Source of the DNA: Halorubrum trapanicum
Lineage (GTDB): Archaea > Halobacteriota > Halobacteria > Halobacteriales > Haloferacaceae
DNA length: 64,000 nt
Assembly: GCF_002355655.1 (NCBI RefSeq)
Contig: NZ_AP017570.1
Coordinates: 62,001-126,000 of the forward strand
Direction: 5' to 3'
The position numbers and the translations under genes are program-made. The notes beneath the pieces were generated by a model, which was not told the origin of the DNA, searched no databases, and was given only the letters and a program-made list of their open reading frames with translations. Below are positions 5,285-56,402 of this stretch, one piece after another; the stretch's first letter is position 1; each line of letters opens with the position of its first letter.

Positions 5285-5290
5285 TGTCGC

Positions 5291-14754: not shown

Positions 14755-14940
14755 TCACGTTGTCCTAACGCGTTGATACAGCGCAACAAAGAGTTCCACG
14801 ACAGCAACGCCGGCGCCGATAGCTAACGCGACTTCTGGCCCTCGGAGGAGGTAACCGAGGGCGGCAGCACCCACCACACCGACGACAGAAAGGGCGATTC
14901 GAGTACGAAGTCGAGCGGAATCCGTGTTTGTTTGAGTCAT
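14755..14940 (-). CDS. Small two-TM protein, candidate immunity protein of module 1
   Basis: A 61-residue, very hydrophobic protein with two closely spaced helices (about residues 14-30 and 36-54), a polar N-terminus and a basic C-terminus. It starts 32 bases after the stop of the halocin-like precursor and is surely co-transcribed with it. Modules 2 and 3 also have a membrane gene 38-42 bases after the precursor. Position and topology suggest self-protection or peptide export, which is inference. Confidence 0.6.
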   Translation of the reverse strand: MTQTNTDSARLRTRIALSVVGVVGAAALGYLLRGPEVALAIGAGVAVVELFVALYQRVRTT

Positions 14941-14972
14941 AATTTATAGTACGCAAGGAGAAGGATAAGAGT

Positions 14973-16097
14973 TCAGTTACAGTACCCTGCGACAATACAG
15001 ACGTACCCTGAACCAAGTCCACAGCCGACACGTGAAATCGCCTCGACGACCAACAGACAGCCCCCGGAACAGATCAGATAACCCCCGATAGTAGTAATTA
15101 GAGGCAGACACCGCACTAGACAGGTACTTTGGCTAAGGCGACCCCCTCCAAGTTTACACAGGATACCGACCAGCGTAGTACATTGGAAACAGGAGAGTAT
15201 CGAGCCTTCGGACACCTGCGCCGTGGAGAGGGCCCCGGAGCCTGTCCCTACCGAGTTCAACGAACTGGAACTGTTCTGGTCCTGGTTCGGGCGACGAGCA
15301 TTTCGGATGGGAAGTTTGGTCGTCTGGGATCCGACCATTGCTGGCTCTTCGCCGGCCTGATCTTGGCCGAACGTCATCAGCTTGGCCTGGAACTGCCCAG
15401 CGTCTGAAGCACCGTTGTCAACTCTTTCGATGGTTTTTGCTCCTGACTGTGTTGGGTGAGAAGCAACCCCGAATGCGGTTGCCGCTTGACGCTCGCCTTC
15501 TTGTACGACGGTGACGGCAAACAATGCACCGACGTTCGCTGGATCGGTCTGTCCAGTTGTGTCCCGAGGATCGACCGGACGGTTGCCAACGGGTTCAAAA
15601 GGAACGATCACCACCCGAGGATCTACATCGTTCAGATCAGGATCGGTTGTCTCAACATCGACAGAAACTATGCCAGAGGGCTGCATCTTCCCTTCGGATC
15701 GCATCACAGCTTTGAGCTTGTTGATTTCCGAATTATTCAGCGCCATAGCGGTCGCTCGGGGAACCTCGTCACCCGCACGGACTTCGACATCAGTTGCTTC
15801 GAAGTCGGGGTCGTCAGATGCCCGGGATTTCGGCTCGGTCGATCCTTTACTGCCGGCAGCCATTCCGGACAGTCCACCGAACCCAGCAACACCAGCCAAT
15901 GAGGCAACTGTTTTTTGTAGTACAGACCGCCGGTTCTCATCAGTGTTAAAGTTGCCAAAATTAGCCTCATTCGAGTTGGAAACCTGATTAGCTGCTTGGA
16001 GAGTCTCCATACAGCCACCGCCATCGTCAACAGCGTCGTTCAGTTCGTTCTGATACTGTTCCTCGTCAAAGTCGGGGTCGGAGTCTGATTCCTCCAT
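14973..16097 (-). CDS. Halocin C8-like precursor, module 1
   Basis: A 374-residue precursor. The acidic N-terminus (QNELNDAVDDGGGC) is shared with the precursors at 46385 and 50793. A Tat-type signal follows (RRSVLQK plus hydrophobic stretch, about residues 56-82), then a ~220-residue soluble pro-region. The C-terminal core (about 302-374) has ten cysteines, opening SCFQC and glycine-rich, like halocin C8. In halocin C8 the pro-region acts as the immunity protein and the core is released. Membrane genes follow downstream, and the FilR1-type regulator is divergent. Probably a secreted antimicrobial peptide; activity and processing site are untested. Confidence 0.85.
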   Translation of the reverse strand: MEESDSDPDFDEEQYQNELNDAVDDGGGCMETLQAANQVSNSNEANFGNFNTDENRRSVLQKTVASLAGVAGFGGLSGMAAGSKGSTEPKSRASDDPDFEATDVEVRAGDEVPRATAMALNNSEINKLKAVMRSEGKMQPSGIVSVDVETTDPDLNDVDPRVVIVPFEPVGNRPVDPRDTTGQTDPANVGALFAVTVVQEGERQAATAFGVASHPTQSGAKTIERVDNGASDAGQFQAKLMTFGQDQAGEEPAMVGSQTTKLPIRNARRPNQDQNSSSSLNSVGTGSGALSTAQVSEGSILSCFQCTTLVGILCKLGGGRLSQSTCLVRCLPLITTIGGYLICSGGCLLVVEAISRVGCGLGSGYVCIVAGYCN

Positions 16098-16130
16098 GGT
16101 AACACACCACTTAGCACTCTTTCGCGGCTT

Positions 16131-16154
16131 GTATTCACGTTAATTGATGAATAC
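16131..16154 (-). promoter_or_regulatory. GTATTCA palindrome in the halocin promoter, module 1
   Basis: GTATTCA (16131-16137) and TGAATAC (16148-16154) lie 34-57 bases upstream of the precursor start, over the expected TATA/BRE region. Related pairs are at 47434-47460 and 51792-51815. Confidence 0.6.
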
Positions 16155-16186
16155 GACTGGTAGGACAAGAGTACCCCCCGCAAGCT

Positions 16187-16237
16187 TTGAGGGCCCCCCT
16201 CAAGCTGTACACATTCTGCTAACATGGTTCGTGTACA
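16187..16237. promoter_or_regulatory. Operator block between precursor and regulator, module 1
   Basis: TTGAGGG/CCCTCAA (16187-16203) is followed by TGTACAC (16206-16212), an 18-base spacer, and GTGTACA (16231-16237). The TGTACAC-N18-GTGTACA pair is kept exactly at 51868-51899. Likely the site of the adjacent regulator. Confidence 0.6.
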
Positions 16238-16288
16238 ACCAATTGACCTCCACAGAACTGAATACGCCCACGCTACTAGAACTCGTTA

Positions 16289-17080
16289 ATGGAACAACCT
16301 GATCCCGCCGATTTTGAATCGCTCATCGCAGACCGGTCGGGATTTCTTCGTGTCCTCACCGCGGCCCCACGTTCAAAACGTGAGCTTACCGAACTATTCG
16401 ACTCTTCGCGGTCGACGATTGATCGAGTGCTGCGCTCGCTCGCTGACGCACACCTCGTTGAGTATCGGGACGGTGAATGGCACGCAACTGCGGCCGGGGT
16501 GTGTGCATATCGTAAACACGACGAGTACGCATCGTTTCTCACCGACCTCGCCGACGCAGCACCGATTCTCGCTGCGCTCCCCACCGAAACTTCTATCCAT
16601 GAAGCGTTTCTCGCGGGGTCAACTGCGCATATTGCGGAGGAGAACGTCCCGGACGCGGTTCTTGACCCAATGCTTCAGTCAATCCGCGAGGCCTCTCTCG
16701 TTCGTGGATTCGCGCCAAAGGCTCTTGTGGGCTCAGCGATGGACTTCTACGACGCTGCCGTTACAGGTGATGCATACGAATTGGAGTTAGTGGTCGATGG
16801 AGACGTGTTTGACCAGTTATACGAGTTGCAACCCCAAGAGACGAGAGAAGCTGTAGAGGACCCAGACGTCACGTTGCTCCGTGGGCCAATCCCTTACGCG
16901 TATGGGCTGTGGATCGTCGATGACACGGATGTGGGTATCGTCGTCTACACAGAAAAAGGAATTCAGGGCTGTATACTGAACGATACTGAGACCGCTGTCG
17001 ACTGGGCGGTCGAACAGTTCGAGTCGGTGAAAGACACTGCTGAACCGATTCTATTTCGAGGCGGTCGAAACACCGTCTAA
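16289..17080 (+). CDS. FilR1-type HTH regulator of module 1
   Basis: A 263-residue protein. A winged-helix domain (about residues 12-75; SRSTIDRVLRSLADAHLVEY is the recognition region) is followed by a FilR1_middle-like domain (about 95-255) that ends with the typical PYAYGLWIVDDTDVG and ND-x-x-A-x-x-W motifs. It is divergent from the halocin-like precursor and closely related to the protein at 51950, less so to 47636. By family it is a DNA-binding regulator, here presumably of the halocin operon through the palindromes in the shared intergenic region. Confidence 0.85.
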   Translation: MEQPDPADFESLIADRSGFLRVLTAAPRSKRELTELFDSSRSTIDRVLRSLADAHLVEYRDGEWHATAAGVCAYRKHDEYASFLTDLADAAPILAALPTETSIHEAFLAGSTAHIAEENVPDAVLDPMLQSIREASLVRGFAPKALVGSAMDFYDAAVTGDAYELELVVDGDVFDQLYELQPQETREAVEDPDVTLLRGPIPYAYGLWIVDDTDVGIVVYTEKGIQGCILNDTETAVDWAVEQFESVKDTAEPILFRGGRNTV

Positions 17081-33695: not shown

Positions 33696-34809
33696 CGAAC
33701 GCATCCTCCCGGCGCGACTGGCCGATGATCGGCTGTTCGCGAACGACACGCTCTGCCTCGTCGTAGTCGTGTTCGCGACCGTTCCAGAAGTCCATATTCA
33801 GGACGAACAGTTCGACCGTGCTGAGCCGCCGTGCGGACCATCCGGACGCCTGCTGGATGAACTCGGATCGCACGTCGTTCACCCGACTGTCGAGCTTCTC
33901 GAACATCTGTGCGCGACGTTCGACGTCGGTGAGGTCCTCGCGACGGGTGACGAACGGGTTGAACAGGAAGCCGATGACGGGAAACTGCGTCAGCTTCTCG
34001 GCGGGCGTGCCCTCGTCGCGGAAGCGGTCGTAGACCTCCAACGGGCTGACCTGGACGCCGATGTAGTATCGCACCTGCTGGATGCCGCGCTCCCGCATCT
34101 CCTTCGGCCGGGTCTCCCGGTACTCCTCGAGGAGTTCCTTGAAGATCGGATTCTCCGTGACGTCCTCGTCGTTGAGGCGGTCCTCGATGTTCTCCGTGAT
34201 CTGCTCCACCGGGAATGAGCGGGTTGTGGCGTGGAGTTTGAGCTTCGAATCCAGCTCTTTGTTGGCGAAGTCCTCGCCGGCGTCTTGGAGCTGTGCCCAG
34301 TCGTCGGACATCGCGAAGTCCATGTTGTCCGGGTCGATCTCGATGAACGCCTCCATCGTCCCGTCGGCCCGCTGAATGGCTCTTGCGCCCGGCCACGCTC
34401 GCTCGATGTTCGTGAGGTCCTGCGTACGTTCGTCCGGCTTGAAGGGCGTGTAGTTCGCCAGACCGCCCTCATTCCGCTCTGTCTCGTTGGTACTCCCATC
34501 AGCGTCTTCGGGAGCACTGAAGGTAATCTGCGGCCGTTTGACGTACCGATAGACGTCCTTGGTCCACGTCCACGCGTTCAGGTGATCGGGAGAGACGTAG
34601 ACGATGGCAACGCCAAAGCCGAAGCCGCCGGCGACGAACGGAAGTGCGAGCGATTCGATCCCCGTGAGGCCGGCGATGAATAGGCCGACGATCGGAAAGG
34701 CGATCAGGACGCCGACGTCACCCTCCTCAATGTTGAGGTAGGGGATGCGACTCTCCTCGCCGAACTGGTCCATGATGCGCCGTGCGGCTGCGTCTTGATC
34801 TATCGACAT
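33688..34809 (-). CDS. VirB3/VirB4-N-like T4SS membrane component
   Basis: A 373-residue protein with two close transmembrane helices (about residues 30-72, GVLIAFPIVGLFIAGLTG then LALPFVAGGFGFGVAIVYV), as in PrgI/VirB3-type proteins. A ~290-residue cytosolic domain follows, resembling the N-terminal domain of VirB4 ATPases. It is immediately upstream of and overlapping VirB4. In several archaeal and Gram-positive systems this part is a separate gene, so it probably docks VirB4 to the channel. Confidence 0.75.
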   Translation of the reverse strand: MSIDQDAAARRIMDQFGEESRIPYLNIEEGDVGVLIAFPIVGLFIAGLTGIESLALPFVAGGFGFGVAIVYVSPDHLNAWTWTKDVYRYVKRPQITFSAPEDADGSTNETERNEGGLANYTPFKPDERTQDLTNIERAWPGARAIQRADGTMEAFIEIDPDNMDFAMSDDWAQLQDAGEDFANKELDSKLKLHATTRSFPVEQITENIEDRLNDEDVTENPIFKELLEEYRETRPKEMRERGIQQVRYYIGVQVSPLEVYDRFRDEGTPAEKLTQFPVIGFLFNPFVTRREDLTDVERRAQMFEKLDSRVNDVRSEFIQQASGWSARRLSTVELFVLNMDFWNGREHDYDEAERVVREQPIIGQSRREDAFDA

Positions 34810-43344: not shown

Positions 43345-45200
43345 TTTCGGAGGATAGGTCAGTTCTGGGTTGAATCGCCGTCGGTTTGTGATACTTCCCA
43401 CTTATCAAGCGTCGACTTTGGACCTTAGCGGGCATGTCCATCAAGCGAGCTGGGAACTTACGCGGATTCTGGCGCTGCTGAACGGTGTCACCACTCCCGA
43501 GCGGCGAGCCCGGTGGGGAATCGGTCGCTCAGTCGGGTGGTATCAACGCCGAGGCGATTATCTCGACACACTCACCCGCGGTCAGCACGGGTGCGTAGTT
43601 CATCTCGCCGTTGACACCCGCTTTCAGCAGGGAGTCCGTGAGTCGCCAGATGTTGTAGAGAAGTACGGCGAACACGAAGTAGAACAAGCGAACGCGGTAG
43701 TCCTTCGAGGAGGTCTTCGCCAAGAAGTCGTTCTTGATGCTCTTGTACTCGTTCTCGATCTGCCAGCGACGGCTGTAGCGCCGACAGAACGTCTCGGCTT
43801 CATCGGGGCCGACTCGGAGATTCGTCGCGAACACGGTTGTCCCCTCGCCGCTCGTCGACGGCACGTACAGAAACCGCATCGGATGTGAGCCAGCCTCGAC
43901 GTGAACGGAGGCCGACTCCACAGCTACCTCTTGGTCATCCTCGTCCATCTGCTCTATCACATCGCGTTCGGAGCTGGTGATCCGTTTCGGGATGAGGTAG
44001 TTCACATTTAGGTTCGAGAGCGTCTGCAACACGCGCATAGAATCGAACTCGCGGTCGCAAAGCACCGTCTCGATGGGGACGTGCTCTTTCGCGCGCTGAA
44101 CGAGTCTGCGTACGACGCGATGAATCTGGTTCGGCGGGTTCTCATCCCACGCTGAACTCTCACACACTGGCTCGACTGCCAGAACAAGGGGGATATTCCG
44201 CCCAATGATCGAGAGGGTCGCAAATTTGAACGCTCGACCCTCCCCATCTTTCGTCCCGCTCACCATCGGCATCTCCTCAACATCCCCATAGTAGGGAACA
44301 GTCGTGATATCGATGGCGGCAGTAACAGGCCGACGGAACGACGCTTCAGAGGCGATAACTGAGAGCAAACGATCCGTCAACTCATTAAATCCATCCACAA
44401 GTTCTTGAGGTTCGAATTGCTTGACAGCGCGGAGGTGGGTATCTCCATGGGGTCCGTACTCCGCGCCTCGTCGATACTGGAAGCGAGCGGCCCCCTGGGC
44501 GGTGCCACAGCTGACCATTCCCATGTAGGTCTGCAACTCAAAGAACCGCGTGTCCTCGTAGGAGGCGTTCGCGGCCCGGTCTGACTCGAAGTGGTCAAAA
44601 GCGTGATCACGGGCAAGCCGCGTCGTCTGGACGATCTCGTCCTGCGAGAACGATTCATCCTCCGCGGAGTCCGCGTCTTCTTGAGTATCGTCGACGATCT
44701 CTGCCTTGGGGCGCACTTCGGGTGCAGAGATGTCGAAATCGTGGACCTCTTTGACGACGAAGTGGGCGGCGGTCTGCACGTATTCGTGGACAGCGTCGTC
44801 GAATCGGTTCCGCCACGCCCGCGAGAATGCCGATTCATCGGGGACACGACTGAATCCGAGGAGAGTGGCGACTTCCGGTTGTCGCGTTAGTCGTCGCGTG
44901 AATGCGGCGTACGACACCCCTGTAATCTCCATGAAAATGAACGCGAGAACCATCGCGCGAAAGGAGAGCGGGGCAGGATGCCACGCTGGATACCCGTCTT
45001 CGATGGCATCAATCGAGTGGTCGATATTCTCAAACGCGGTGGCAAGGTCGGTATCATGGAGATCGTTTCGGATAGCTATCCCGAGTTGATACGCTTCGCA
45101 CAGATAGCGCATTCGAGGACTCTCTCTTCTGTTTGTCCCGTCAGAACTCTCCATGTGAGCGCTTCAAAACAGGATGTAAAGCAAATTTTGAAGGACTTAT
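43345..45200 (-). mobile_element. IS4-superfamily insertion sequence A
   Basis: Limits are approximate. The left side shares GCAGTTTCGGAGGATAGG-like sequence with IS B (here CACAGTTTCGGAGGATAGG, near 43345). The right end is not resolved. It contains one transposase. It stands between the integrase region and halocin module 2 in the same orientation as IS B. Confidence 0.6.
43529..45154 (-). CDS. IS4-superfamily transposase (IS A)
   Basis: A 541-residue DDE transposase. The catalytic residues lie in VTAAIDITTVPYYG, VLCDREFDS, and the Y-R-E-K signature YSRRWQIENEYKSIK near residue 480. A hydrophobic helix, YFVFAVLLYNIWRLTD, follows, as usual for the group. It is highly similar throughout to the 540-residue protein at 48704-50326 and more distantly to 53066-54742. 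The reading frame is intact, so the element may still be mobile. Confidence 0.9.
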   Translation of the reverse strand: MESSDGTNRRESPRMRYLCEAYQLGIAIRNDLHDTDLATAFENIDHSIDAIEDGYPAWHPAPLSFRAMVLAFIFMEITGVSYAAFTRRLTRQPEVATLLGFSRVPDESAFSRAWRNRFDDAVHEYVQTAAHFVVKEVHDFDISAPEVRPKAEIVDDTQEDADSAEDESFSQDEIVQTTRLARDHAFDHFESDRAANASYEDTRFFELQTYMGMVSCGTAQGAARFQYRRGAEYGPHGDTHLRAVKQFEPQELVDGFNELTDRLLSVIASEASFRRPVTAAIDITTVPYYGDVEEMPMVSGTKDGEGRAFKFATLSIIGRNIPLVLAVEPVCESSAWDENPPNQIHRVVRRLVQRAKEHVPIETVLCDREFDSMRVLQTLSNLNVNYLIPKRITSSERDVIEQMDEDDQEVAVESASVHVEAGSHPMRFLYVPSTSGEGTTVFATNLRVGPDEAETFCRRYSRRWQIENEYKSIKNDFLAKTSSKDYRVRLFYFVFAVLLYNIWRLTDSLLKAGVNGEMNYAPVLTAGECVEIIASALIPPD

Positions 45201-45526: not shown

Positions 45527-45931
45527 ATGAAAACAGCAACCCGGCAAATTGTCACCGAGGAACTGTGGCGGAGCGCCGTCTGGATAGCGATTGGCCTGTT
45601 TGGCTGGTCGATGATTATTGCATCTACTGATCTCATTCAGGCAAGTGCGCTAACCGCACTCGGACTTCCAATACTGACGTGGGCGGTATTGACGGCGGTG
45701 ATGGTTGGTATCCGAGTCACTACTGGGTTAGAATTGAAGGCGAAGACTGAAAACAGCCAGCTGCTTTGGCTCATTACTGGAAGTGTCCTTGGGGGGTTCT
45801 TTATCCTCTATGACGTACTAGTTAATGGGCGAGATCCAGTAATATTCCTCTGGTTCGGGGGTGCTGTCGCAGTTGGTGTCGGAATTTGGCGATTAGGTCT
45901 GCGCAATAAATCCGCATCAAACACCAACTGA
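45527..45931 (+). CDS. Four-TM protein, paralogue of the module 2 candidate immunity protein
   Basis: 134 residues from ATG 45527 (MKTATRQIVTEELWRSAVWI). Four predicted helices. It is clearly paralogous to the convergent protein at 45950-46342: both share EELWRS-x-VWIA-x-GLFGWSMI, the T-A-L-G-L-P-(I/L)-L-T-W segment and R-V-T-T-G-(L/M)-E-L-K. Having two versions beside one halocin-like gene suggests immunity diversification or a reserve copy from another producer. Confidence 0.7.
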   Translation: MKTATRQIVTEELWRSAVWIAIGLFGWSMIIASTDLIQASALTALGLPILTWAVLTAVMVGIRVTTGLELKAKTENSQLLWLITGSVLGGFFILYDVLVNGRDPVIFLWFGGAVAVGVGIWRLGLRNKSASNTN

Positions 45932-45949
45932 GATTTTTTCAACACAAGG

Positions 45950-46342
45950 TTATTGTCCCGCTCGAACAATATAACCCCGCCAGATCAGGGTACCGAGTAC
46001 AGCCCCAACTATATATGCCACACTTATACCCCATGATTGGTTTTCTACCAAAATCATCCAAAAGACGAGGAATCCCCCCACAACTAAGCCTACAAACCAG
46101 ACCAAATACTTTCCACTTGCTGTTTCAACTTTTAATTCCATTCCTGTAGTAACTCGAAGAGTAATCATAAAAATCGTAAGTGTCGCCCATGTCAGAAGCG
46201 GTAGCCCAAGAGCAGTGTATGCAGTTGCCTCTAGCTGATCAGTTGATGAAAGAATCATTGACCAGCCGAACAACCCAACTGCAATCCAGACGACGCTCCG
46301 CCACAGTTCTTCGTTGATAATACGTCTAGTATTGTATTCCAT
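45950..46342 (-). CDS. Four-TM candidate immunity protein of module 2
   Basis: A 130-residue integral membrane protein whose ATG is 42 bases after the stop of the halocin-like precursor, so it is in the same operon. Helices lie at about residues 15-33, 40-62, 78-98 and 105-122. Its paralogue lies convergently at 45527. The position matches the membrane genes behind the precursors at 14973 and 50793, although the three membrane families differ. An immunity or export role is inferred from context. Confidence 0.7.
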   Translation of the reverse strand: MEYNTRRIINEELWRSVVWIAVGLFGWSMILSSTDQLEATAYTALGLPLLTWATLTIFMITLRVTTGMELKVETASGKYLVWFVGLVVGGFLVFWMILVENQSWGISVAYIVGAVLGTLIWRGYIVRAGQ

Positions 46343-46384: not shown

Positions 46385-47398
46385 TTACGTTATCTGCTCA
46401 ATACCGCACGAGAGCGCACAGGAACCACCTACTACACCGACACAGGCCAAGCACGCAACGCACGTGAGCTTGCTCGGGTCTGGGAGGCAGAGACTACAGC
46501 CAACCGTCCAGCAGAATCCCCAGAACGAGGTGCTTCGGAGGGCGACACAGTTCACCCAGCAATCCCAAGCGCTCGCTTGTATGGTGATGACGTCGCCGCT
46601 GCTCTTGTCGAGTTCAGCTGTGACTAGTCTGTCCGGACCGGAATCGTTACTCTCTCGATCAACGACAGGGATATGCAGGTACATCTTCGCCTGCCCTTCG
46701 AAAGCGCTCACCGCGGCTTTGTCTTCACGGAAATCGAACCTGCCAGAGTTGTTCTGCACGTACTGCTGGTAATCCTCGTTGTTCCGAACCGACTTGAGAG
46801 CAGACTGCTCATGTTTCTCATCAGGTTCTCGATTTACCGACTCTACATTACCCTGCTTACCAGCGCGAGCACGGACTACCTCACCCGATTCGAGAATGAC
46901 TCCTGCGGATGCCTTTGCGGAGTCGGTGTCCGTTGCAAACCCGAGAGCAGTCTCCCCACCCCGAACCGGAATCAGGATTTGTGTGAACGTGTTCTGCTTG
47001 TCCCCTGATTCCGCGACAACCCTGAATGCATTCGCGGCATCCTTGTCCAATCGATTACGTCCACCAGGGATCTTCGAAAGGACGGTTTCCATTACCTCCG
47101 TTTCTAATGCTGCTTCCACTTTCTTCGCCGTTTTTTCCTCCGATAACTTTTCGCGAGCCGAGTTGTCTGGAGTCCTAGCTTCGACAGAACGGATTGCTGA
47201 GACGCCGAATGCACTAATCCCCGCAGAAGCACCGACACTCTTGAGCACACCACGCCGTGTGGTTGAGGGACCGTTTGACTGTCGGTACTTGTTGAGCGCT
47301 TCCCACGTTTCAGCACAGCCGCCACCATCGTCTGACTCTTCGCTCAACTCGTCTTGGTACTGATCGACTTCGAGGTCTCGTTGGTTATCATCTGGCAT
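46385..47398 (-). CDS. Halocin C8-like precursor, module 2
   Basis: 337 residues from ATG 47398 (MPDDNQRDLEVDQYQDELSE). It shares the D-Q-Y-Q-x-E-L...DDGGGCxETWE opening with the other two precursors, then the Tat motif TTRRGVLKSVG with its hydrophobic segment (about residues 48-72). A ~200-residue pro-region leads to the C-terminal core (about 278-337) with ten cysteines, beginning WDCWVNC and Trp-rich at first. The core has no sequence identity beyond cysteine count with modules 1 and 3, so target range may differ. Confidence 0.82.
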   Translation of the reverse strand: MPDDNQRDLEVDQYQDELSEESDDGGGCAETWEALNKYRQSNGPSTTRRGVLKSVGASAGISAFGVSAIRSVEARTPDNSAREKLSEEKTAKKVEAALETEVMETVLSKIPGGRNRLDKDAANAFRVVAESGDKQNTFTQILIPVRGGETALGFATDTDSAKASAGVILESGEVVRARAGKQGNVESVNREPDEKHEQSALKSVRNNEDYQQYVQNNSGRFDFREDKAAVSAFEGQAKMYLHIPVVDRESNDSGPDRLVTAELDKSSGDVITIQASAWDCWVNCVALRSTSFWGFCWTVGCSLCLPDPSKLTCVACLACVGVVGGSCALSCGIEQIT

Positions 47399-47433
47399 GT
47401 GGATACACCACACTGGGCACACACTCAGCTATT

Positions 47434-47569
47434 GTATTCATCTCACCGACTGATGAATCCATCATGCGACGGGGGGTACCCCCATTGGTTGCGACCCCAC
47501 CCCAGTTTATACCCCCTCCCCCCACGAGTTGACCCCCACCCCCACGGCGTGAGTTTTTCCGTCGTGGGG
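47434..47569. promoter_or_regulatory. Control region between precursor and regulator, module 2
   Basis: GTATTCA...TGAATCC (47434-47460) lies over the precursor promoter, followed by the palindrome GGGGGTACCCCC (47472-47483). A long run of minus-strand G tracts spans about 47494-47545, and CCCCACG/CGTGGGG (47540-47569) lies near the regulator. The exact TGTACAC pair of modules 1 and 3 is absent. Confidence 0.55.
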
Positions 47570-47635
47570 GAACCAACAGTTATCCTGTTAAATAGATACG
47601 AGAAATTAAGGCCATCCTGTGTGTAACAGCTTGAC

Positions 47636-48418
47636 ATGCCCCGCCCACCCGATGATTGCCTTGACGCCGTCCTCACCGAGCGTCACCCATTCCTCCGCGC
47701 ACTCATCGAACAACCTCGCTCGAAGTGTGACCTCGAAGACGAAATAGACGGGTCGCGCTCCACACTCGACCGCGCGCTTCGTGACCTCGCCGACGCCGAA
47801 CTCGCCACGTACGAAGACGGAGTGTGGAAGCCCACGCCCCTCGGACGATGCAGTTACCGGACACGAAACGCGTATCTCGAACGCTTGGAGAATCTTGCTG
47901 AGGTGGCACCACTATTCAACGAACTCTCTTCCGGGAGTCCAGTCGACTGCGCATTCGTTATCGGAGCAGATGTCCACGAGACCGATCCATCGATGCCAGA
48001 TGCAATCATGCAAACACTGCTCGACAGTGTCGAAGGTGGACAAGTCGTTTCCGTTGTGACGCCTGTCGTCGTCACCGGCTTCGCTGAAGACTTCTACGAG
48101 CGCGTGAGTCGTGGTAAGAACTACTCGCTCGAACTGCTCATCCCACCAGACGTGTTCGAGCGCACCCGTGCCGCGTTTCCAACACTCACGGACGAACTGC
48201 TGGATGACGAGAACGTGAGCCTGCACACTGCATCGATCCCATTCAGTTTCGGGCTCTGGATCGTCGATTCAGCCGAGGCAGGCATTATCATCTTCACCGA
48301 CCAAGGCGTGCGTGGCATCCTCGTGAACGACACCACAGAAGCGCTCGACTGGGCGACAGAGCAGTATGAACGCGTGAAACAGGACGCTGACCCGGTCTTC
48401 CTCCGAGGCCACGTCTAA
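47636..48418 (+). CDS. FilR1-type HTH regulator of module 2
   Basis: A 260-residue protein. A winged helix (about residues 12-72, with DGSRSTLDRALRDLADAELA) is followed by a FilR1_middle-type domain ending PFSFGLWIVDSAEAGIIIFT and NDTTEALDWATEQY. It is divergent from the module 2 precursor. Same family as 16289 and 51950 but the most diverged of the three, in line with its different operator region. Probably a repressor or activator of the halocin operon. Confidence 0.82.
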   Translation: MPRPPDDCLDAVLTERHPFLRALIEQPRSKCDLEDEIDGSRSTLDRALRDLADAELATYEDGVWKPTPLGRCSYRTRNAYLERLENLAEVAPLFNELSSGSPVDCAFVIGADVHETDPSMPDAIMQTLLDSVEGGQVVSVVTPVVVTGFAEDFYERVSRGKNYSLELLIPPDVFERTRAAFPTLTDELLDDENVSLHTASIPFSFGLWIVDSAEAGIIIFTDQGVRGILVNDTTEALDWATEQYERVKQDADPVFLRGHV

Positions 48419-48469
48419 ATAGGCGAGAGATCAGCTGCCAATCCTCGATTCAGACCACGATCTTCTGAA

Positions 48470-48536
48470 TAAAAGGCACGCATGAAATCCATCCTCCGAG
48501 GTTGTGCGCAGAGTGCAGTTTCGGAGGATAGGCCAG
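48470..48536. repeat. Repeat and hairpin at the junction of module 2 and IS B
   Basis: AAGGCACGCAT and CCATCCTCCGAG (48472-48501) match 52849-52875 after the module 3 regulator. ATCCTCCGA also pairs with TCGGAGGAT (near 48525-48535), forming a 9-bp hairpin at the left edge of IS B. Confidence 0.45.
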
Positions 48537-50345
48537 TTCCAAGTCGAATCTCCGCCGGTTCGTGGTCTATTTCCCAACGAATCGCTCGATTCCTGTTCAT
48601 TCAGAACGAGATAATCGGACGAGCATGGGAAATTGCGCGGATTTTTGTGCTCCTACAGAGCGTCGCCACTCCCAAGCGGTGACCCCGGTGGAGAATCGGT
48701 CACTCAGTCGGGCGGAATCAATGCCGAAACGACGATCTCGACACACTCACCCGCAGTCAGGACCGGCGCATAGTCCATTTCGCCATCGACGCCCGCTTTC
48801 AGCAGGAAATCCGTGAGTCGCCAGATATTGTAGAGGAGTACGGCGAACACGAAGTAGAACAGCCGGACGCGGTAGTCTTTTGAGGAGGTCTTCGCGAGGA
48901 AATCGCCCTTGATAGACTTGTACTCGTTTTCGATCTGCCAGCGGCGGCTGTAGCGGCGACAGAACGACTCGGCCTCATCGGGGCCGACTCGGAGATTCGT
49001 GGCGAAGACAGTCGTCCCCTCACCACTCGTCGACGGCACGTACAGAAACTGCATCGAGTGACTTCCCGATTCGACGTGAACGGACGCTGATTCGACCGCT
49101 ACGTTTTGTCCATCGGCATCCATTGTTTCGATGACCTCCCGCTCAGTGCTATTGATCCGTGTGGGAACGAGGTAGTTCACGCCGAGATTCGAGAGTGTCT
49201 GGTAGACTCGCTTAGAATCGAACTCCCGGTCACAAAGCACCGTCTCTACGGGGACGTGTTCTTTCGCTCGTTGAACGAGCCGCCGAACTACACGGTGAAC
49301 CTGATTCGGCGGATTCCTATCCCACGCTGAGCTCTCCCGAATCGGCTCCACAGCGAGCACGAGCGGGATGTTCTCGCCGACAATCGAGAGCGTCGCGAAC
49401 TTGAAAACCCGTTCTTCTTCACCTTTTGTACCGCTGACCATCGGCATCGCCTCGACCTCGCCGTAGTAAGGAACTGTCGTGACGTCGATCGCGGCCGTCA
49501 CGGGTCGTCGGAACGAGGCTTCCTCCCCGATTACCGAGAGTAGTCGGTCGCTGGCCCGGTCGAACCCCTCGATCAGCGCTTCCGGCTCAAATTGCTTGAC
49601 CGCCCGCAAGTGCGTGTCCCCGTGTGGACCATATTCTTCGCCACGCCTGTACTGGAAGCGAGCAGCTCCCTGCGCAGTGCCACAACCAACCATCCCCATG
49701 AACGTCTGTAGCTCGAAGAACTGCGTATCCTCGTAGGAGGCGTTCTGCGCTCGATCAGAATCGAATCCGTCAAATCCGTGGTCCCGTGCGAGGCGTGTCG
49801 TCCGGTGAACCTGCTCGTCCGAAAACTCAGTGCCTGTAGAGTGGGTTTGCTCATCGTCGTCGGCCGACTCTGGGTTCGAGTCAGTGACCTCCTCTTTCGG
49901 ACGCACCACGGGGACAGGAGGTCCGTAGTCGTGGACCTCTTTGACGACGAAGTGAGCGGCGACGGTCACGTATTCGCGGACCCCATCGTCGAAGCGCTTG
50001 CGCCAAGTGCGCGAGAGAACCGACTCGTCAGGAACGTGGTCTAGCCCGAACGGTTCGGCGAGCTCCTGATGCGTTTCGAGAGTCCGATAGCTGTCGCCGG
50101 TAATCTCCCGATACATAAACAGCCGGAGCATCCCCTGGAACGAATCGGATGCCGGGTGCCAGTCCGGGTAGCCGTCTTGGAGATGTTTTGTGTAGAGCGT
50201 GACGCCGCTCACCGCAGCTCGGAGACACGCTCGATCTCGCAGTGTTTCGCTGAGCTCGATTCCGGTTTTATAGGCGTGGGTCAGCCGGCGGGCACGGTCC
50301 GACAGCGGGTCCAAGATCTCTGACATCGTTTTTCAGTTGTATAGA
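48500..50345 (-). mobile_element. IS4-superfamily insertion sequence B
   Basis: A close relative of IS A in the same orientation, on the other side of module 2. The left edge carries GCAGTTTCGGAGGATAGGCC; the right edge lies after the ATG at 50326 and is not resolved. Confidence 0.6.
48704..50326 (-). CDS. IS4-superfamily transposase (IS B)
   Basis: A 540-residue DDE transposase with the same motifs as IS A: AIDVTTVPYYG, VLCDREFDS and YSRRWQIENEYKSIK. Long identical stretches to the IS A protein in the C-terminal two thirds, with more divergence in the N-terminal 130 residues, imply common origin but not a recent duplication. Intact frame. Confidence 0.9.
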   Translation of the reverse strand: MSEILDPLSDRARRLTHAYKTGIELSETLRDRACLRAAVSGVTLYTKHLQDGYPDWHPASDSFQGMLRLFMYREITGDSYRTLETHQELAEPFGLDHVPDESVLSRTWRKRFDDGVREYVTVAAHFVVKEVHDYGPPVPVVRPKEEVTDSNPESADDDEQTHSTGTEFSDEQVHRTTRLARDHGFDGFDSDRAQNASYEDTQFFELQTFMGMVGCGTAQGAARFQYRRGEEYGPHGDTHLRAVKQFEPEALIEGFDRASDRLLSVIGEEASFRRPVTAAIDVTTVPYYGEVEAMPMVSGTKGEEERVFKFATLSIVGENIPLVLAVEPIRESSAWDRNPPNQVHRVVRRLVQRAKEHVPVETVLCDREFDSKRVYQTLSNLGVNYLVPTRINSTEREVIETMDADGQNVAVESASVHVESGSHSMQFLYVPSTSGEGTTVFATNLRVGPDEAESFCRRYSRRWQIENEYKSIKGDFLAKTSSKDYRVRLFYFVFAVLLYNIWRLTDFLLKAGVDGEMDYAPVLTAGECVEIVVSALIPPD

Positions 50346-50451
50346 TGTTACAAAAATATGCGAATATGTTATTTATGTAGTCTAGTCTGGCTCAAATAGT
50401 CGGCCCAGTTGTCTCAGGTTGAGTATATTACCATATCATACACGGATACAG

Positions 50452-50754
50452 CTATTCATCCAAATCAATATCGGACCCGGTGTCCGGGTGTCCTACCAGT
50501 AATAAATAAAAACCGGCAGCAAGGAATACGAGCATACCGATTTCAATAACCGTTCTCGCTGTCCCACTCGGATTTCCTAACAAGACAAATAATTGTGGAG
50601 CGTACGTTTGAAATAATAACCCAACCAGCAACAGGACACTACCAATCCGTGTAGGTTGACTCATCCGGGACCAACGGTATGCCCAAGCAACACCGGCACC
50701 GAGTAATAAAATCGTTCCGAGTACCGTCCGGAGGGTAAGTTCGAGCGGGGCCAT
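50452..50754 (-). CDS. Three-TM candidate immunity protein of module 3
   Basis: A 100-residue membrane protein with three predicted helices (about residues 8-26, 37-57 and 68-88) and an acidic C-terminal tail. The start is 38 bases behind the stop of the module 3 precursor. No similarity to the module 1 or 2 membrane proteins beyond topology. An immunity function is inferred from the conserved position. Confidence 0.6.
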   Translation of the reverse strand: MAPLELTLRTVLGTILLLGAGVAWAYRWSRMSQPTRIGSVLLLVGLLFQTYAPQLFVLLGNPSGTARTVIEIGMLVFLAAGFYLLLVGHPDTGSDIDLDE

Positions 50755-50792
50755 TATATCTGAATTTGCGAGGAGATCATAAATCAGTTAGG

Positions 50793-51758
50793 TCAACAGA
50801 GCGGCTTCGGACCAAGGCATGGGTCGCAGAGAAAGCCCAGCTTTGGGGCTGAAATAATCGCTCCCAAACAAGTCGTACAGGTCTTGAATTCTTTGAAAAC
50901 GCCACACAGGGAGCAGGCCGCAAAAATACCTCCATATGCGCGTGCCAACCGGTACCAACAATTCAAGTCTGGCACACATGGGCCGCATGGTAGGAGAGCG
51001 GCGGTTTGGACGCCGTCATTAACCGAGAAGGTGGATACAGCCCCAGAATCATCAGTTTCGTCCTCTATTTCATCAAGTAAGTCACGGTATTCTTCAGTCG
51101 TCAGTGAGGTCTCTTGAGTGTTCAATTCACCACTTTCTGCTGAAGTTGAAACAACATCTGCACGTGCAGTATCTTCTCCAGTGTCAATATAGGTGACCGT
51201 AGTATAGGTCGGTGGGGAGTCGTCTCGATCGTCCCACCCGAGGAAAGCGTCGGGGATTCGTTCCACATCCTCGTCGGTTTGAAGAGATACGCCCGTATCG
51301 AAAGGAAGATCGACGGTCCGATAATCGATATCTACATCCCCGACGCCCCGTATTCGAAAGGCAACGGCGTCCTCAGGTTGTTTGTTATAACTATGTTCAG
51401 AGGCGGCATCATTCAGGAGCTGCTGAACATCGCTGTTACCCAGCGCGTCGTCAACTGCTTCTCTACGACGTTTCCCGGCCAGTCGTTGAATGACAACCTC
51501 TCGTTCGCCGTTAGTGCTATCGCTTCCATCACCAAGATCCTTTTTATTGTCTGCAGTGGCAACTCCCGGCACGAGCGTTGTAGCGATTCCCAGAGATCCA
51601 ATCTTTAGAACTGTCCGGCGGTCAACACCTGGGCGCGGATCGGGACTACTCCGTATATCCGACAATTTTTCCCACGTCTCGGTACAACCACCACCATCAT
51701 CGACAGCGTCGTTCAGTTCGGCTTGGTACTGGTCTGGGTCGGAGTCTGGTTTTTCCAT
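50793..51758 (-). CDS. Halocin C8-like precursor, module 3
   Basis: A 321-residue precursor starting MEKPDSDPDQYQAELNDAVD, with the shared GGGCTETWE element. The Tat motif VDRRTVLKIGS and hydrophobic stretch (about residues 41-66) end near VATA. A pro-region of ~185 residues precedes a C-terminal core (about 255-321) with ten cysteines in C-x2-C pairs (LLPCGPC, CSLC, CTTC, CDPC). The upstream intergenic sequence is nearly the same as that of module 1, so the two modules share recent ancestry despite different cores. Confidence 0.83.
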   Translation of the reverse strand: MEKPDSDPDQYQAELNDAVDDGGGCTETWEKLSDIRSSPDPRPGVDRRTVLKIGSLGIATTLVPGVATADNKKDLGDGSDSTNGEREVVIQRLAGKRRREAVDDALGNSDVQQLLNDAASEHSYNKQPEDAVAFRIRGVGDVDIDYRTVDLPFDTGVSLQTDEDVERIPDAFLGWDDRDDSPPTYTTVTYIDTGEDTARADVVSTSAESGELNTQETSLTTEEYRDLLDEIEDETDDSGAVSTFSVNDGVQTAALLPCGPCVPDLNCWYRLARAYGGIFAACSLCGVFKEFKTCTTCLGAIISAPKLGFLCDPCLGPKPLC

Positions 51759-51791
51759 GGTAACACACCACTTGCCATTCTTTCGCGGTTT

Positions 51792-51899
51792 GTATTCATG
51801 TTAATTGATGAGTACCCCTCCCAGACTACTCCCACCCCCCTCACTTGCTGAGGGTCCCCCTCAAGCTGTACACATACCATTGACATAGTTCGTGTACAG
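51792..51899. promoter_or_regulatory. Control region between precursor and regulator, module 3
   Basis: GTATTCA/TGAGTAC (51792-51815) lies over the precursor promoter. TGAGGG/CCCTCA (about 51850-51864) and TGTACAC-N18-GTGTACA (51868-51899) lie nearer the regulator. Order and spacing match module 1. Confidence 0.6.
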
Positions 51900-51949
51900 C
51901 CAATTAACCTCCCCAGAACTGAATACGCTCACGCTACTAGAACCCGCTA

Positions 51950-52744
51950 ATGAAACAACCCGATCCCGCCGATTTTGAAGCGCTCATCGCAGACCGGTCG
52001 GGTTTTCTCCGTGTCCTCACCGCGGCGCCACGCTCAAAACGCGACCTTACCGAATTGTTCGACTGTTCGCGCTCGACGATTGATCGAGTGTTACGCTCGC
52101 TCGCTGACGCATACCTCGTTGAGTACCAGGACGGTGAATGGCACGCAACCGCCGCCGGGGTGTGTGCATATCGCAAACACGACGAGTACGCCTCGTTCCT
52201 CACCGACCTCGCCGACGCAGCACCGATCCTCGCTGCGCTCCCCACCGAGACCCCCATCGGTGAAGCGTTTCTTCCGGGATCAACTGCGCATATTGCCGAG
52301 AGCAGTGTTCCCGATGCAGTCCTCGATGTAATGCTTTGCTCAGTCCGCGGAGCATCTGTCGTCCGAGGGCTAGTCCCGAAGGCGCCCGCAGGCTCAGCGA
52401 CTGAGTTCTACGAGGCAGCAGTCACAGATGATTCTGCTACACTGGAGTTGGTGCTCGATGGAGACGTATTCGACCGATTATACGAACTGAATCCACAGGA
52501 GACGAAAGATGCGTTAGACAAACCGAGCGTTACGTTGTTTCGCGGGACGATTCCGTGGACGTTTGGGCTATGGATAGCGGATGAAACGGAGGTCGGTGTC
52601 GTCGTTTACACGGAACAAGGAATTCAGGGCTGTATGCTGAATGATACTAAGACTGCGGTTGAGTGGGCGACAGAACAGTATGATTCGGTTGAGCGAGATG
52701 CAGAGGAAATTTTCCTTCGTGGAGGTCCCAAAGGGATACGGTAA
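51950..52744 (+). CDS. FilR1-type HTH regulator of module 3
   Basis: A 264-residue protein highly similar to the 16289 regulator over the first ~110 residues (same ADFE-x-LIADRSGFLRVLTA start and winged helix) and clearly related to the end (WTFGLWIADETEVGVVVYTE). FilR1_middle-like domain C-terminal. Divergent from the module 3 precursor. It may cross-regulate module 1, since the TGTACAC-N18-GTGTACA site is identical. Confidence 0.85.
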   Translation: MKQPDPADFEALIADRSGFLRVLTAAPRSKRDLTELFDCSRSTIDRVLRSLADAYLVEYQDGEWHATAAGVCAYRKHDEYASFLTDLADAAPILAALPTETPIGEAFLPGSTAHIAESSVPDAVLDVMLCSVRGASVVRGLVPKAPAGSATEFYEAAVTDDSATLELVLDGDVFDRLYELNPQETKDALDKPSVTLFRGTIPWTFGLWIADETEVGVVVYTEQGIQGCMLNDTKTAVEWATEQYDSVERDAEEIFLRGGPKGIR

Positions 52745-52839
52745 CGGGAAATCCCGTAGTCACACTTAGTGTTCGCTGAAACGGATTACTAAGAAAAAAA
52801 TCAATTTCCAATTTCTATTCGTTTTCTATATCTCTGTAT

Positions 52840-54775
52840 AGAAGGCACGCATCAATTCCATCCTCCGAGATTGTGGGAAGTTGAGACTACACCGGATTTA
52901 GCGAGGCTGTGATGCGTGAATTTGGCCGATTCAGTCAAGGCAAATCACCTCATATCACTCCCTAAGCGGTCATTCCTGTCATACTTTCAATTGTATGGAC
53001 GAATTTTCGTGACTTCCAACAGTGTAGCCACTCAGACGGCGAGCTAACCTAGACAGAGTGTCTCTCTACCCAATTCCAGTCTCCTTCTTTAGCAGCGTCA
53101 GCGTATTGTCGGCTGTTACGATCGGCGAGTGCTCGTACTCACCAGTCAACTCAACCTGCACGAGCAGATCGACAGCTCGCCAGATCGAGTACAGGAGACA
53201 CGCGAATGCGAAGTAGAAGAACCGTAGCCCGAAATCCTTCGACGTTGTCGCAGCCATGAACCGTTTGATCGATTTGTAGCCGCTCTCGATCTCCCAGCGA
53301 TAGCCGTACTCTGTGAGGTGCCCGCTCCCGCAATTCGACATGAACACCGAATACTGCCGGTGATCGTCGTGCTCGGAGTCCTCTTTCCGGCGGTAGGTCA
53401 GCGTCGTCTCGTGCCACTCATTTTTTCCGAGATGGAGCTTCCGGTCGGCCTCGTAGCGGTCTTGGCCGCGCTGGAGCAATCGCTTGGCCTGGGCTTTCTC
53501 GCTGGTCTGCATTCGTTTCGGCACGACGTATGAAAGCCCACGTTGGCTGAGCATCTCCAGGACGTGCTGGCTATCGAACTCTCGGTCCATCAGCACGTTG
53601 TCGACGTGAACCATCTCCTCGGCAGAATTCAAGAGGTCCTTGACGATTTCTAAGCGGGACTCACCCTTCTGAACTGGCCGCGCATCAAGGACGATCGGGA
53701 CGGCGTTGCCGACTAACTGGACTGTCGCCCACTGATAGGCGTACTCGTCAGTTGTCTCCTTGGTGCCGATAATTTCGTCTTCGTGGCCCGTTCTATCGCC
53801 CGTGAACGGGTCAGCTTCGGTAATGTCGATCGCGACGATCCCCGCTCGAAAGAACTGCTCTGTCCCGGCAACTTCGTTCAGGAGCCGAGTGACGGCCTGC
53901 CGGTACATCGCTCGAACCTGTTCAATCGAGAGGTCGCGGATGTGCTCGCGATGGGCGTGGCCCAGCGGTGTCCGATCCCGAGTCGATTCGTAGATAAAAC
54001 TGCGAGCCCCTTCGTTCGCAGCCAGCCGCTCGCGAAGTCCGAGATACGTCTGTAAGTCCCAGTAGGCGTTCTCGTGTATCTCACAGCCCTCGCCACGTTC
54101 CAGCGAAAACGCCGGGAAGACGACGCGGCTGACGTGTCCGGTGATCTTCTCTGCCTGCTCCAACGTAGTTTGATCATTCGGGTCTGACTCACCAGACTCG
54201 TTCCCGTGGTATCGGAGCTTTCGTGCCGGTTCACGCGGAGTCTCGACACCCGCATTCTGGGCTTTGATGAGAATCGTTCGAGCCGCTGTCTCGACAGTCT
54301 CTCGGAGGTCAGGGGTGAACCGCTCGTGCCAGCTTCGCCACAGTGTCGATTGGTACGGGATCGTCTCGACCCCCAGTTTATCGCGGAGTTCAGGGCGGTT
54401 CCTGAGGTAGCCAACGAGTGCGGTTTCGTGCTCCCACCCGTGGCATTCTTGCAGGACGAACACCCGGAAGAGAGTGGCCATCTGGTAGCGTGTCGACCCC
54501 GCATACTGATCATGGGCGCTAAATCGAAAGTAGGCTAGCGGGAGTGCACAGACGAACTCCTCGATAGAGTCGTGACTATCGTGATCGAACCACGTCTCTG
54601 AGACTGTCCGGATATCAGATTCCAGTCCAGCGAGCGACGTTCGATCGTACAGTAGTGTCGAATTGTACGCCGGCCACTCACTATATTGTCGTTGGGCGAT
54701 CCGTCGAAACGTAGTCCGACAGGACTCACTGGTGTAGGGCATCAGTCTATAGAAAGTAGAACGAACTCAAAACGC
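52840..54775 (-). mobile_element. IS4-superfamily insertion sequence C
   Basis: Approximate limits. The left side begins after the regulator of module 3, in sequence matching 48472-48501. The right side lies near the G-rich tract at 54795. It encodes a more distant member of the IS A/B group. Confidence 0.5.
53066..54742 (-). CDS. IS4-superfamily transposase (IS C)
   Basis: A 558-residue DDE transposase. Motifs: VAIDITEADPFTG, VLMDREFDSQHVLEML, and the Y-R-E-K box YGYRWEIESGYKSIK with the following helix FYFAFACLLYSIWRAVDLL. Same architecture as IS A/B but low overall identity, so it is a separate lineage of the same group. Intact frame. Confidence 0.88.
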   Translation of the reverse strand: MPYTSESCRTTFRRIAQRQYSEWPAYNSTLLYDRTSLAGLESDIRTVSETWFDHDSHDSIEEFVCALPLAYFRFSAHDQYAGSTRYQMATLFRVFVLQECHGWEHETALVGYLRNRPELRDKLGVETIPYQSTLWRSWHERFTPDLRETVETAARTILIKAQNAGVETPREPARKLRYHGNESGESDPNDQTTLEQAEKITGHVSRVVFPAFSLERGEGCEIHENAYWDLQTYLGLRERLAANEGARSFIYESTRDRTPLGHAHREHIRDLSIEQVRAMYRQAVTRLLNEVAGTEQFFRAGIVAIDITEADPFTGDRTGHEDEIIGTKETTDEYAYQWATVQLVGNAVPIVLDARPVQKGESRLEIVKDLLNSAEEMVHVDNVLMDREFDSQHVLEMLSQRGLSYVVPKRMQTSEKAQAKRLLQRGQDRYEADRKLHLGKNEWHETTLTYRRKEDSEHDDHRQYSVFMSNCGSGHLTEYGYRWEIESGYKSIKRFMAATTSKDFGLRFFYFAFACLLYSIWRAVDLLVQVELTGEYEHSPIVTADNTLTLLKKETGIG

Positions 54776-54959: not shown

Positions 54960-56402
54960 ACAGCGAGAGAATCCCGGCGTTCACGCCGGGCGTGAATCGC
55001 GTAAGCCCGGTGCCACAGTCCACGCGGGTCTGTCGGGCCGGATATTCTACTTTCACTCCGGTTGGCACGCCATTATGTAGCCACTCCGCCACATGCTATG
55101 TATGGCGAATCTGGTCACGCGCACCTACGTTGCGTCCATTCGCAACCACCAGCAGGTGCGCGACGACCTCAATTCGCTTGGGTTCGCCGCCTCGAAACTC
55201 TGGAACGTCGCCCGGTGGACCTGCGACTGTATCTGGAGTGAAACCGGCACGATTCCAGACCACGGCACGCTCAAAGCGTACCTCAAGAGTCACGAACGCT
55301 ACGCGGATTTGAACGCTCAATCCAGTCAGGCAATTCTCGAAGAATTGGCTGAAGCGTTCGACTCGTGGTACGCCCACCGTCAAAATGGCAACGGGGACGC
55401 GAACCCACCCGGCTACCGCAAGCAGGGCGACGAGCATCCCCGCTCGACGGTCACATTCAAAGAGGACGGTTTCAAACACGACCCCGACCACAACAGGATT
55501 CGACTCTCGAAAGGAGCGAATCTCAAAAAGTCGTGGTCGGACTTCGTTCTCTGCGAGTACGCCACCGGCCCGGATGTGGACGTACAGCACGTCCAGCAGG
55601 TCCGAGCGGTCTGGACCGGTAAGGAGTGGGAGCTGCACATCGTCTGTCGCGTCGACACTGGCGATCCGGACCCTCCCGGCGACCGGGTGGCAGGTATCGA
55701 CCTCGGCATCTGCAACTTTGCCGCCGTCGCGGTCGGAGACGAGGCCCTGCTGTACCCCGGCGGCGCACTCAAAGAGGACGACTACTACTTCCAGAAGGAG
55801 CGAGCGACGTGCGACGACAGCGACTCCCACAAAGCGCAACGACTAGACCGGAAGCGCCGGGGGCGGCGTGACCACTTCTTGCACGCCGTCTCGAAGGATG
55901 TGGTAGCTGAGTGTGCGGCCCGCAACGTCGGGACGATTGCCGTGGGCGACCTCTCTGGTATCCGCGAGGACGCCGATTGGGGCGACCACGGCAATCTGGA
56001 CCTGCACGGATGGGCGTTCGACCGCTTCCTCGAGATGCTGGAATACAAAGCCGCCGAGCGCGGCATCAGCGTCGAGCGCGTGGACGAGCGCGGCACGTCC
56101 AAATCGTGTGCATCCTGTGGGACGACCGACGACAGCCAGCGCGTCGAACGTGGGCTGTACGTCTGCGACGAGTGCGGGGTGGTCGCCAACGCCGACGTGA
56201 ACGGAGCCGAGAACATCCGACAGAAGGTACTCCCGAATCTCGTCTGTGACGGGGGAGATAGGGATAACGGCTGGATGGCACAGCCAGCGGTGCGCCTGTT
56301 CGACAAATCCACGGGGCAAGTCGCCCCACAAGAGTGGGCGTCCCGCGAACCATAATATCCCAACGCTTGGGAAACCGCGCCGTTCACGGCGCGGAGGATG
56401 TC
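54960..56402 (+). mobile_element. TnpB-only (IS1341-type) element
   Basis: Left-end hairpin CCCGGCGT/ACGCCGGG (54973-54990) and right-end hairpin CCGCGCCG/CGGCGCGG (56375-56394), followed by GAGGATGTCAT, bracket a tnpB gene. No tnpA, so mobility would need a helper. Exact ends are inferred. Confidence 0.65.
55093..56355 (+). CDS. tnpB: TnpB-family protein of the IS1341-type element
   Basis: A 420-residue protein (ATG 55093; ATG 55108, giving MANLVTRTYV, is equally plausible). N-terminal helical region, RuvC I in AGIDLGICNFAAVAVGD, a GDL instead of the usual EDL motif in IAVGDLSGIRED, zinc finger CASCG...CDECG, and RuvC III in NADVNGAENI. The C-terminal tail is hydrophilic. Known TnpBs are RNA-guided endonucleases, with the guide from the element right end. 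Whether the changed second motif leaves cleavage intact is unclear. Confidence 0.87.
   Translation: MLCMANLVTRTYVASIRNHQQVRDDLNSLGFAASKLWNVARWTCDCIWSETGTIPDHGTLKAYLKSHERYADLNAQSSQAILEELAEAFDSWYAHRQNGNGDANPPGYRKQGDEHPRSTVTFKEDGFKHDPDHNRIRLSKGANLKKSWSDFVLCEYATGPDVDVQHVQQVRAVWTGKEWELHIVCRVDTGDPDPPGDRVAGIDLGICNFAAVAVGDEALLYPGGALKEDDYYFQKERATCDDSDSHKAQRLDRKRRGRRDHFLHAVSKDVVAECAARNVGTIAVGDLSGIREDADWGDHGNLDLHGWAFDRFLEMLEYKAAERGISVERVDERGTSKSCASCGTTDDSQRVERGLYVCDECGVVANADVNGAENIRQKVLPNLVCDGGDRDNGWMAQPAVRLFDKSTGQVAPQEWASREP

Follow-up and report, generated by a model that had tools for sequence, protein, structure and literature searches.

Two related, convergent four-helix membrane proteins beside a halocin-like precursor gene of Halorubrum trapanicum: candidate immunity proteins in an exchangeable cassette

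To our knowledge, halocin immunity has been worked out in detail for halocin C8 alone. Halocin C8 is the best described halocin, and its immunity resides within its own precursor, as stated in the available part of PMC11509114. Halocin C8 and HalI (TIGR04449; Sun 2005, Mei 2008) share with the modules described here a Tat-exported precursor and a Cys-rich C-terminal peptide (same part of PMC11509114), and one of the present precursors, that of module 1, matches model TIGR04449. Unlike halocin C8, the locus under study has a separate membrane gene behind a precursor, P0003, that does not match this model. The immunity proteins of two-peptide bacteriocins are membrane-associated and dedicated to the protection of the producer, in the portion of PMC6957408 available, and the same is proposed here for the membrane protein P0002. 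In contrast to those proteins, P0002 and its neighbor P0001 are haloarchaeal and nameless in domain libraries, and the likeness is one of description. Type VII toxin loci carry strings of non-identical immunity paralogues (available text of PMC9484751), and there, as with orphan immunity genes and at the present locus, a second non-identical paralogue lies near the toxin gene or putative toxin gene. However, only two copies are found here, and they are of separate ancestry and convergent. A secreted haloarchaeal precursor activated by proteolysis is described in the accessible part of PMC12893001; it is another protein, and its active part is the N-terminus. Among the top literature matches listed, from a search that most subscription journals lie outside, no paper on the present arrangement was found.

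The DNA analyzed (the window) is a 64-kb stretch of a 141.5-kb contig of Halorubrum trapanicum, whose 3.08-Mb genome consists of three contigs. The window harbors three modules of one design: a regulator gene on the forward strand, a divergent gene for a Tat-type, Cys-rich precursor on the reverse strand, and a small membrane gene in the slot behind the precursor. In module 1, the 374-aa precursor (14973..16097, reverse strand) contains the halocin C8 domain (TIGR04449, 52.3 bits), the slot is taken by a 61-aa protein with two TM segments (14755..14940, reverse strand), and the regulator (16289..17080, forward strand) shares 78% identity with the module 3 regulator. Module 3 comprises a 321-aa Tat/Cys-rich precursor (50793..51758, reverse strand), a 100-aa TM protein in the slot (50452..50754, reverse strand), and a regulator of the same family as that of module 2 (51950..52744, forward strand). 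Sequence comparison found no mutual similarity among the slot membrane proteins of modules 1, 2, and 3. A near-copy of module 1 (window 14755-17080) is present in genome G089, with 92.5% DNA identity over 5.9 kb (L121). A contig of the same genome, which belongs to another genus, is 99.93% identical over 4370 bp to window positions 48506-52875, covering an IS and module 3 (L120), indicating a very recent transfer. The replicon may itself be transmissible, as suggested by two large ORFs (27653-31477 and 31470-33749) whose translations resemble conjugation ATPases. Two additional ORFs (17278-18519 and 55093-56355) have ends that resemble TnpB zinc fingers by eye.

Module 2 contains the membrane protein pair. 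The initial annotation had placed this pair beside a halocin gene. A gene for a Tat-type precursor with a Cys-rich C-terminus does adjoin it, but this 337-aa precursor, P0003 (46385..47398, reverse strand), had no match to TIGR04449 at E<=1 and was for that reason rejected as a member of the halocin C8 family. The P0003 translation contains twin arginines at residues 48-49 and 10 cysteines within the last 65 residues, and is weakly similar to other Tat/Cys-rich precursors (23-28% identity over most of its length). Judged by its Tat motif, Cys-rich C-terminus, and this weak similarity, P0003 is a halocin-like protein. The 222-224-aa proteins of L138, L140, and L141 also begin with a P0003-like leader (DGGGC.ETW, one D shorter) and end in a zinc-ribbon-like stretch in place of a halocin, indicating that this type of leader is wider than the halocins. 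Divergent from P0003 is a FilR1/HVO_A0261-type HTH regulator (47636..48418, forward strand) with HVO_A0261_N and FilR1_middle domains in Pfam. ISH3-like transposase genes flank the module. The one on the left of the payload (43529..45154, reverse strand) has matches below the NCBIfam cut-off, and the one on the right (48704..50326) is related to it and has the same orientation. A recent composite transposon was considered for module 2 and rejected, because the two IS are only about 75% identical.

P0001 (45527..45931 with the stop codon, forward strand; 134 aa) and P0002 (45950..46342 with the stop codon, reverse strand; 130 aa) are membrane proteins with four predicted TM segments each, candidates for a second, orphan-type immunity protein and for the cognate immunity protein, respectively. 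The stop codons of the two convergent genes are 18 bp apart, and P0002 starts 42 bp past the stop of P0003 on the same strand. The proteins are identical at 62 of 122 positions (51%; BLASTP E 2e-40) and the genes share 72% DNA identity over 191 bp, a likeness beyond chance. The stretches EELWRS, GLFGWSMI, RVTTG, and ELK are exact in both proteins. The initial annotation had drawn attention to these stretches and had described convergent, paralogous four-TM proteins of 134 and 130 residues, one in the precursor operon and one opposed to it; the coordinates, the identity, and the TM scan all agree with that description. TM counts and orientations throughout are from a crude hydropathy scan, in which both proteins have an equal N-in/C-in charge bias. 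An AlphaFold2 model of P0002 consists of four helices, with low confidence (pLDDT 64.7).

Neither protein receives a name from Pfam, NCBIfam, or PADLOC; matches were far below the cut-offs in the first two libraries and absent in the third. The family profile had no match among PDB sequences, and viral contigs had no relatives of P0001, P0002, or P0003. Small multidrug resistance (SMR) paired transporters consist of two four-TM proteins of about 110-130 aa, and P0001 and P0002 are like them in TM number, size, and pairing. However, P0001 and P0002 lack a Pfam SMR match and have an equal rather than an opposite topology bias by the crude hydropathy scan, and an SMR-type antiparallel pair was rejected on these grounds. 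Purifying selection is indicated by dN/dS values of 0.10-0.23 in three pairs of family members, with dS near saturation; the L097/L099 pair gave 0.37 from eight differences only, and P0002/L096 gave no computable value.

The related proteins do not appear to derive from one another at this locus. A tree of 46 rows unites P0002 with a gene of Halosimplex pelagicum (99/95) and excludes it from the set formed by P0001, plasmid orphans, and forms with a long N-terminal part (97/82). The rows nearest to P0001 are plasmid orphans, and that fork is drawn open. The tree omitted the duplicates L033 and L044 as well as L063, and L061, L064, and L065 were under the profile threshold. Since the tree places P0001 and P0002 in separate sets, their common ancestor is older than the locus, and local tandem duplication was rejected. 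Thus, the term paralogues in the initial annotation is accurate as to relatedness and is not to be read as duplication in place; by the tree, the pair was probably assembled.

The position of P0002 was compared with that of genes behind other halocin-type precursors. A TIGR04449 search gave 65 places in 391 Halobacteria genomes, and 40 of these, mostly better-scoring and including several near-copies, were opened. The slot was counted as occupied when a same-strand ORF of 40-200 aa with at least two TM segments lay no more than 150 bp behind the precursor. This was the case for 14 of the 40 precursors and for 8 of 205 other long ORFs (p about 1e-7), a control that includes some wrong-frame ORFs. 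Stricter controls gave 6/98 for gene-like ORFs (p 5e-5) and 3/59 for those of 230-430 aa (p 2e-4). When near-copies were merged, a small TM gene was found behind 9 of 25 precursor clusters, representing 37 of the 40 loci (L156 and L187, which have a slot gene, dropped out). The other 26 of the 40 precursors have no small TM neighbor. The precursors of L151-L153, which by their sequence are taken to be halocin C8 itself, have no small TM gene in the slot. With P0003 as the query, 37 of 44 places were opened and a slot gene was counted by hand behind 8 of 22 precursors, a set that includes the near-copies of modules 3 and 1 (L120, L121). In a comparison of 21 genes (slot genes, P0001, and those of named cassettes), the only similarities found were those among near-copies, that of P0001 to P0002, and a short one shared by L154 and L155. 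A membrane partner is therefore a common, not a general, companion of halocin-C8-type precursors, and P0002 occupies the place of such a partner. Six distant full-length relatives of P0003 were opened as well, and five of them have a protein with 13-15 TM segments behind or beside the precursor, followed in two by an ABC-ATPase-like gene; the partner of P0003-like precursors thus varies.

Comparison of cassettes with related regulators revealed that payloads are exchanged. In modules 1 and 3 and on a plasmid of the halophilic archaeon DL31, the regulators share 77-90% identity and the precursor leaders 48-58%, but neither the remainder of the precursor nor the TM partner is detectably similar. 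DL31 has two small TM genes, of which the 58-aa one was compared first and both were included in a later comparison. Comparisons of modules whose regulators are more distant gave two very weak matches in the precursor remainder (E 0.002 and 0.007). The counterpart of module 2 is on a plasmid of Halorussus aquaticus. A block at 47393..48506, composed of the first six bases of P0003, the intergenic region, the regulator, and the sequence up to the start of the right IS, has 88.9% DNA identity to this plasmid over 1115 bp, and the regulators are 88% identical. The identity ends on one side at 47393, inside the first two codons of P0003; its other end, at 48506, is the start of the right IS. The H. 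aquaticus plasmid also has a relative of the left IS in the left position (82% DNA identity) and a transposase on the right, the latter with no DNA match to the compared part of the right IS of module 2. The H. aquaticus payload is different: it comprises a 357-aa twin-arginine protein, which is not Cys-rich and matches no Pfam model, and behind it a 96-aa TM protein. Because identity to H. aquaticus is limited to the left IS and the regulator block, P0001, P0002, and P0003 were replaced as one block.

In all four cassette pairs with related regulators (modules 1/3, 1/DL31, 3/DL31, and 2/H. aquaticus), both the precursor body and the membrane gene are dissimilar, a comparison of few cassettes and of short proteins, for which the power of BLAST is low. 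Replacement of precursor and membrane gene as a block fits an effector and its immunity gene; it would fit equally any swap with two breakpoints, including one of unrelated genes, and is support rather than proof. A search at E<=1e-40 found regulators like that of module 2 encoded by 49 of the 391 genomes. Among the 20 loci of this type that were opened, several encode a divergent twin-arginine protein, of varied kinds, and at L194 and L199 a small TM gene lies about 45 bp behind it. It appears as if one promoter frame serves many secreted payloads. FilR1/HVO_A0261 regulators at L188, L189, and L190-L209 are often divergent to quite different twin-arginine proteins, some of which contain by eye a GDSGS stretch as in trypsin-like proteases; the only one scanned, that of L193, had no Pfam match.

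The distribution of the membrane protein family is less suggestive of halocins. Relatives of P0002 occur in 32 of 391 genomes including its own, i.e., in 31 of 390 others, of which three have only weak matches (E 5e-4 to 0.006). When 392 genomes of the order were searched with a profile, 29 contained the family at E<=1e-6, that of P0002 among them. Family members have three architectures: the membrane protein alone (130-136 aa), a form of about 190-200 aa that is extended at the N-terminus, and a longer form, mostly near 250 aa (245-313), with a front domain that is winged-helix- or HTH-like as judged from Pfam matches just under the cut-off. The flanks of 38 other family loci were inspected for precursor-like ORFs, the requirements being RR among residues 1-100, 8 or more Cys among the final 95 residues, a length of 180-430 aa, and less than 11% Arg. 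These loci include one duplicate (L044/L101), weak matches (L061, L063-L065), and some whose flanks are cut short by a contig end; two further family genomes from the profile search, G423 and G438, lay outside the set. No convincing precursor-like ORF was found at any of the 38; the sole ORF with all four properties, at L056, was judged a wrong-frame artefact. Outside these requirements, G268 (L060) has on one strand the truncated N-terminus of a precursor (about 5180-5320) and, at a distance of 1.2 kb, a decayed family member (about 6522-7010); the opposite strand carries an alcohol-dehydrogenase-like gene in the interval. The probability of this arrangement by chance is about 0.004, a rough value estimated after the locus had been seen. 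By eye comparison of the listings, the only contig besides that of the window with both family and TIGR04449 matches is G295:C1, where they are 2.6 Mb apart. The initial annotation had named a family far from any halocin-like gene as evidence against immunity, and the 31 genomes and 38 loci largely conform to that picture, with the G268 relic to the contrary. Distance from halocins is nevertheless a weak criterion, since orphan immunity genes would give the same distribution.

We consider P0002 a candidate cognate immunity protein and P0001 a candidate second one, captured into an exchangeable halocin-type cassette, and assign this reading a probability of about 0.5. The immunity pair claimed by the initial annotation is favored for P0002 by its position and by the joint exchange of the payload; the location of the family mostly away from halocins speaks against it. 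Alternatively, P0002 could be the cognate immunity protein and P0001 a chance neighbor, a piece of plasmid cargo that is unrelated to it in role and serves some general function in the membrane. As expected of cargo, the sequences nearest to P0001 (70%) occur as single genes in Halonotius, Halomicroarcula, and Halorarius, on contigs whose backbone is partly shared with the window (stretches of its first 14 kb), and neither TIGR04449 nor P0003-like sequence was found in the genomes of these three or of Halosimplex (0/4; the P0003 search had no positive control). The Halomicroarcula genome (G368) is not free of such cassettes, since it encodes two regulators with 65-67% identity to the module 2 regulator, adjoined by other twin-arginine proteins. 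The Halosimplex relative of P0002 adjoins a gene that was named nitric-oxide-reductase-like by eye. We regard chance adjacency of P0001 as unlikely, because P0001 is within the block exchanged with the precursor and is 51% identical to P0002. The odds that P0002 is an immunity protein are somewhat better than even, and above those of the whole reading, because the cargo explanation also includes immunity for P0002; for P0001 the odds are about even or below.

In 11 genomes (L034-L036, L038-L040, L042, L043, L045, L046, L048) a 136-aa family member adjoins a longer, HTH-like-fused paralogue (245-313 aa). These pairs are perhaps a membrane-bound regulator with its partner, and they hint at a regulatory or sensory role for the family. 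By analogy, P0001 and P0002 could together form a membrane complex for sensing or transport, i.e., for export, processing, or sensing of membrane stress. That neither has an HTH, that convergent genes do not form one operon, that the set of the window proteins is apart from that of the fused pairs in the tree (100/100), and that their close relatives are single genes make such a complex improbable here. An equally low probability is given to P0002 as a general membrane protein in an accidental position, with immunity in the N-terminal part of the precursor. In-precursor immunity is stated for halocin C8 in the available part of PMC11509114, and by analogy P0003 may need no partner; the scarcity of halocin genes at the 38 other loci likewise fits an accident and keeps a general membrane role of the family alive. 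Against an accident, a rough estimate for the whole sample puts at about 0.0003 the probability that a family member would lie by chance no more than 100 bp from a P0003-like gene. In addition, the slots of modules 1 and 3 are likewise occupied by TM genes, and the relic in G268 combines a decayed precursor with a decayed family member, an association assessed post hoc.

If P0002 and P0001 are the cognate and a captured immunity protein, the divergent HTH regulator presumably controls the precursor gene. The precursor would be exported by the Tat route, and its Cys-rich C-terminal peptide, presumably cut off outside the cell, would be antimicrobial. The four-TM protein P0002 would protect the producer from within the membrane, presumably by capturing the hydrophobic peptide or by shielding its membrane target. 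P0001, from another lineage with plasmid-borne orphan relatives, would serve as a non-cognate immunity protein that widens protection to a related peptide. More speculatively, halocin genes of haloarchaea may reside in cartridges that are anchored at the promoter of a FilR1-type regulator and bounded by IS, in which effector and membrane immunity gene are swapped as a block and a plasmid-borne pool supplies additional immunity genes, P0001 for example, to that block. Such cartridges would be the archaeal counterpart of polymorphic toxin/immunity loci with arrays of orphan immunity genes, a joint proposal that we hold only tentatively, as doubtful.

As immunity, the arrangement would be new: a separate membrane gene within an exchangeable block, instead of immunity within the precursor. 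An exchangeable membrane gene behind many precursors would, if true, provide a simple rule for finding immunity genes in haloarchaea, and P0001 and P0002 make cognate versus non-cognate protection directly testable.
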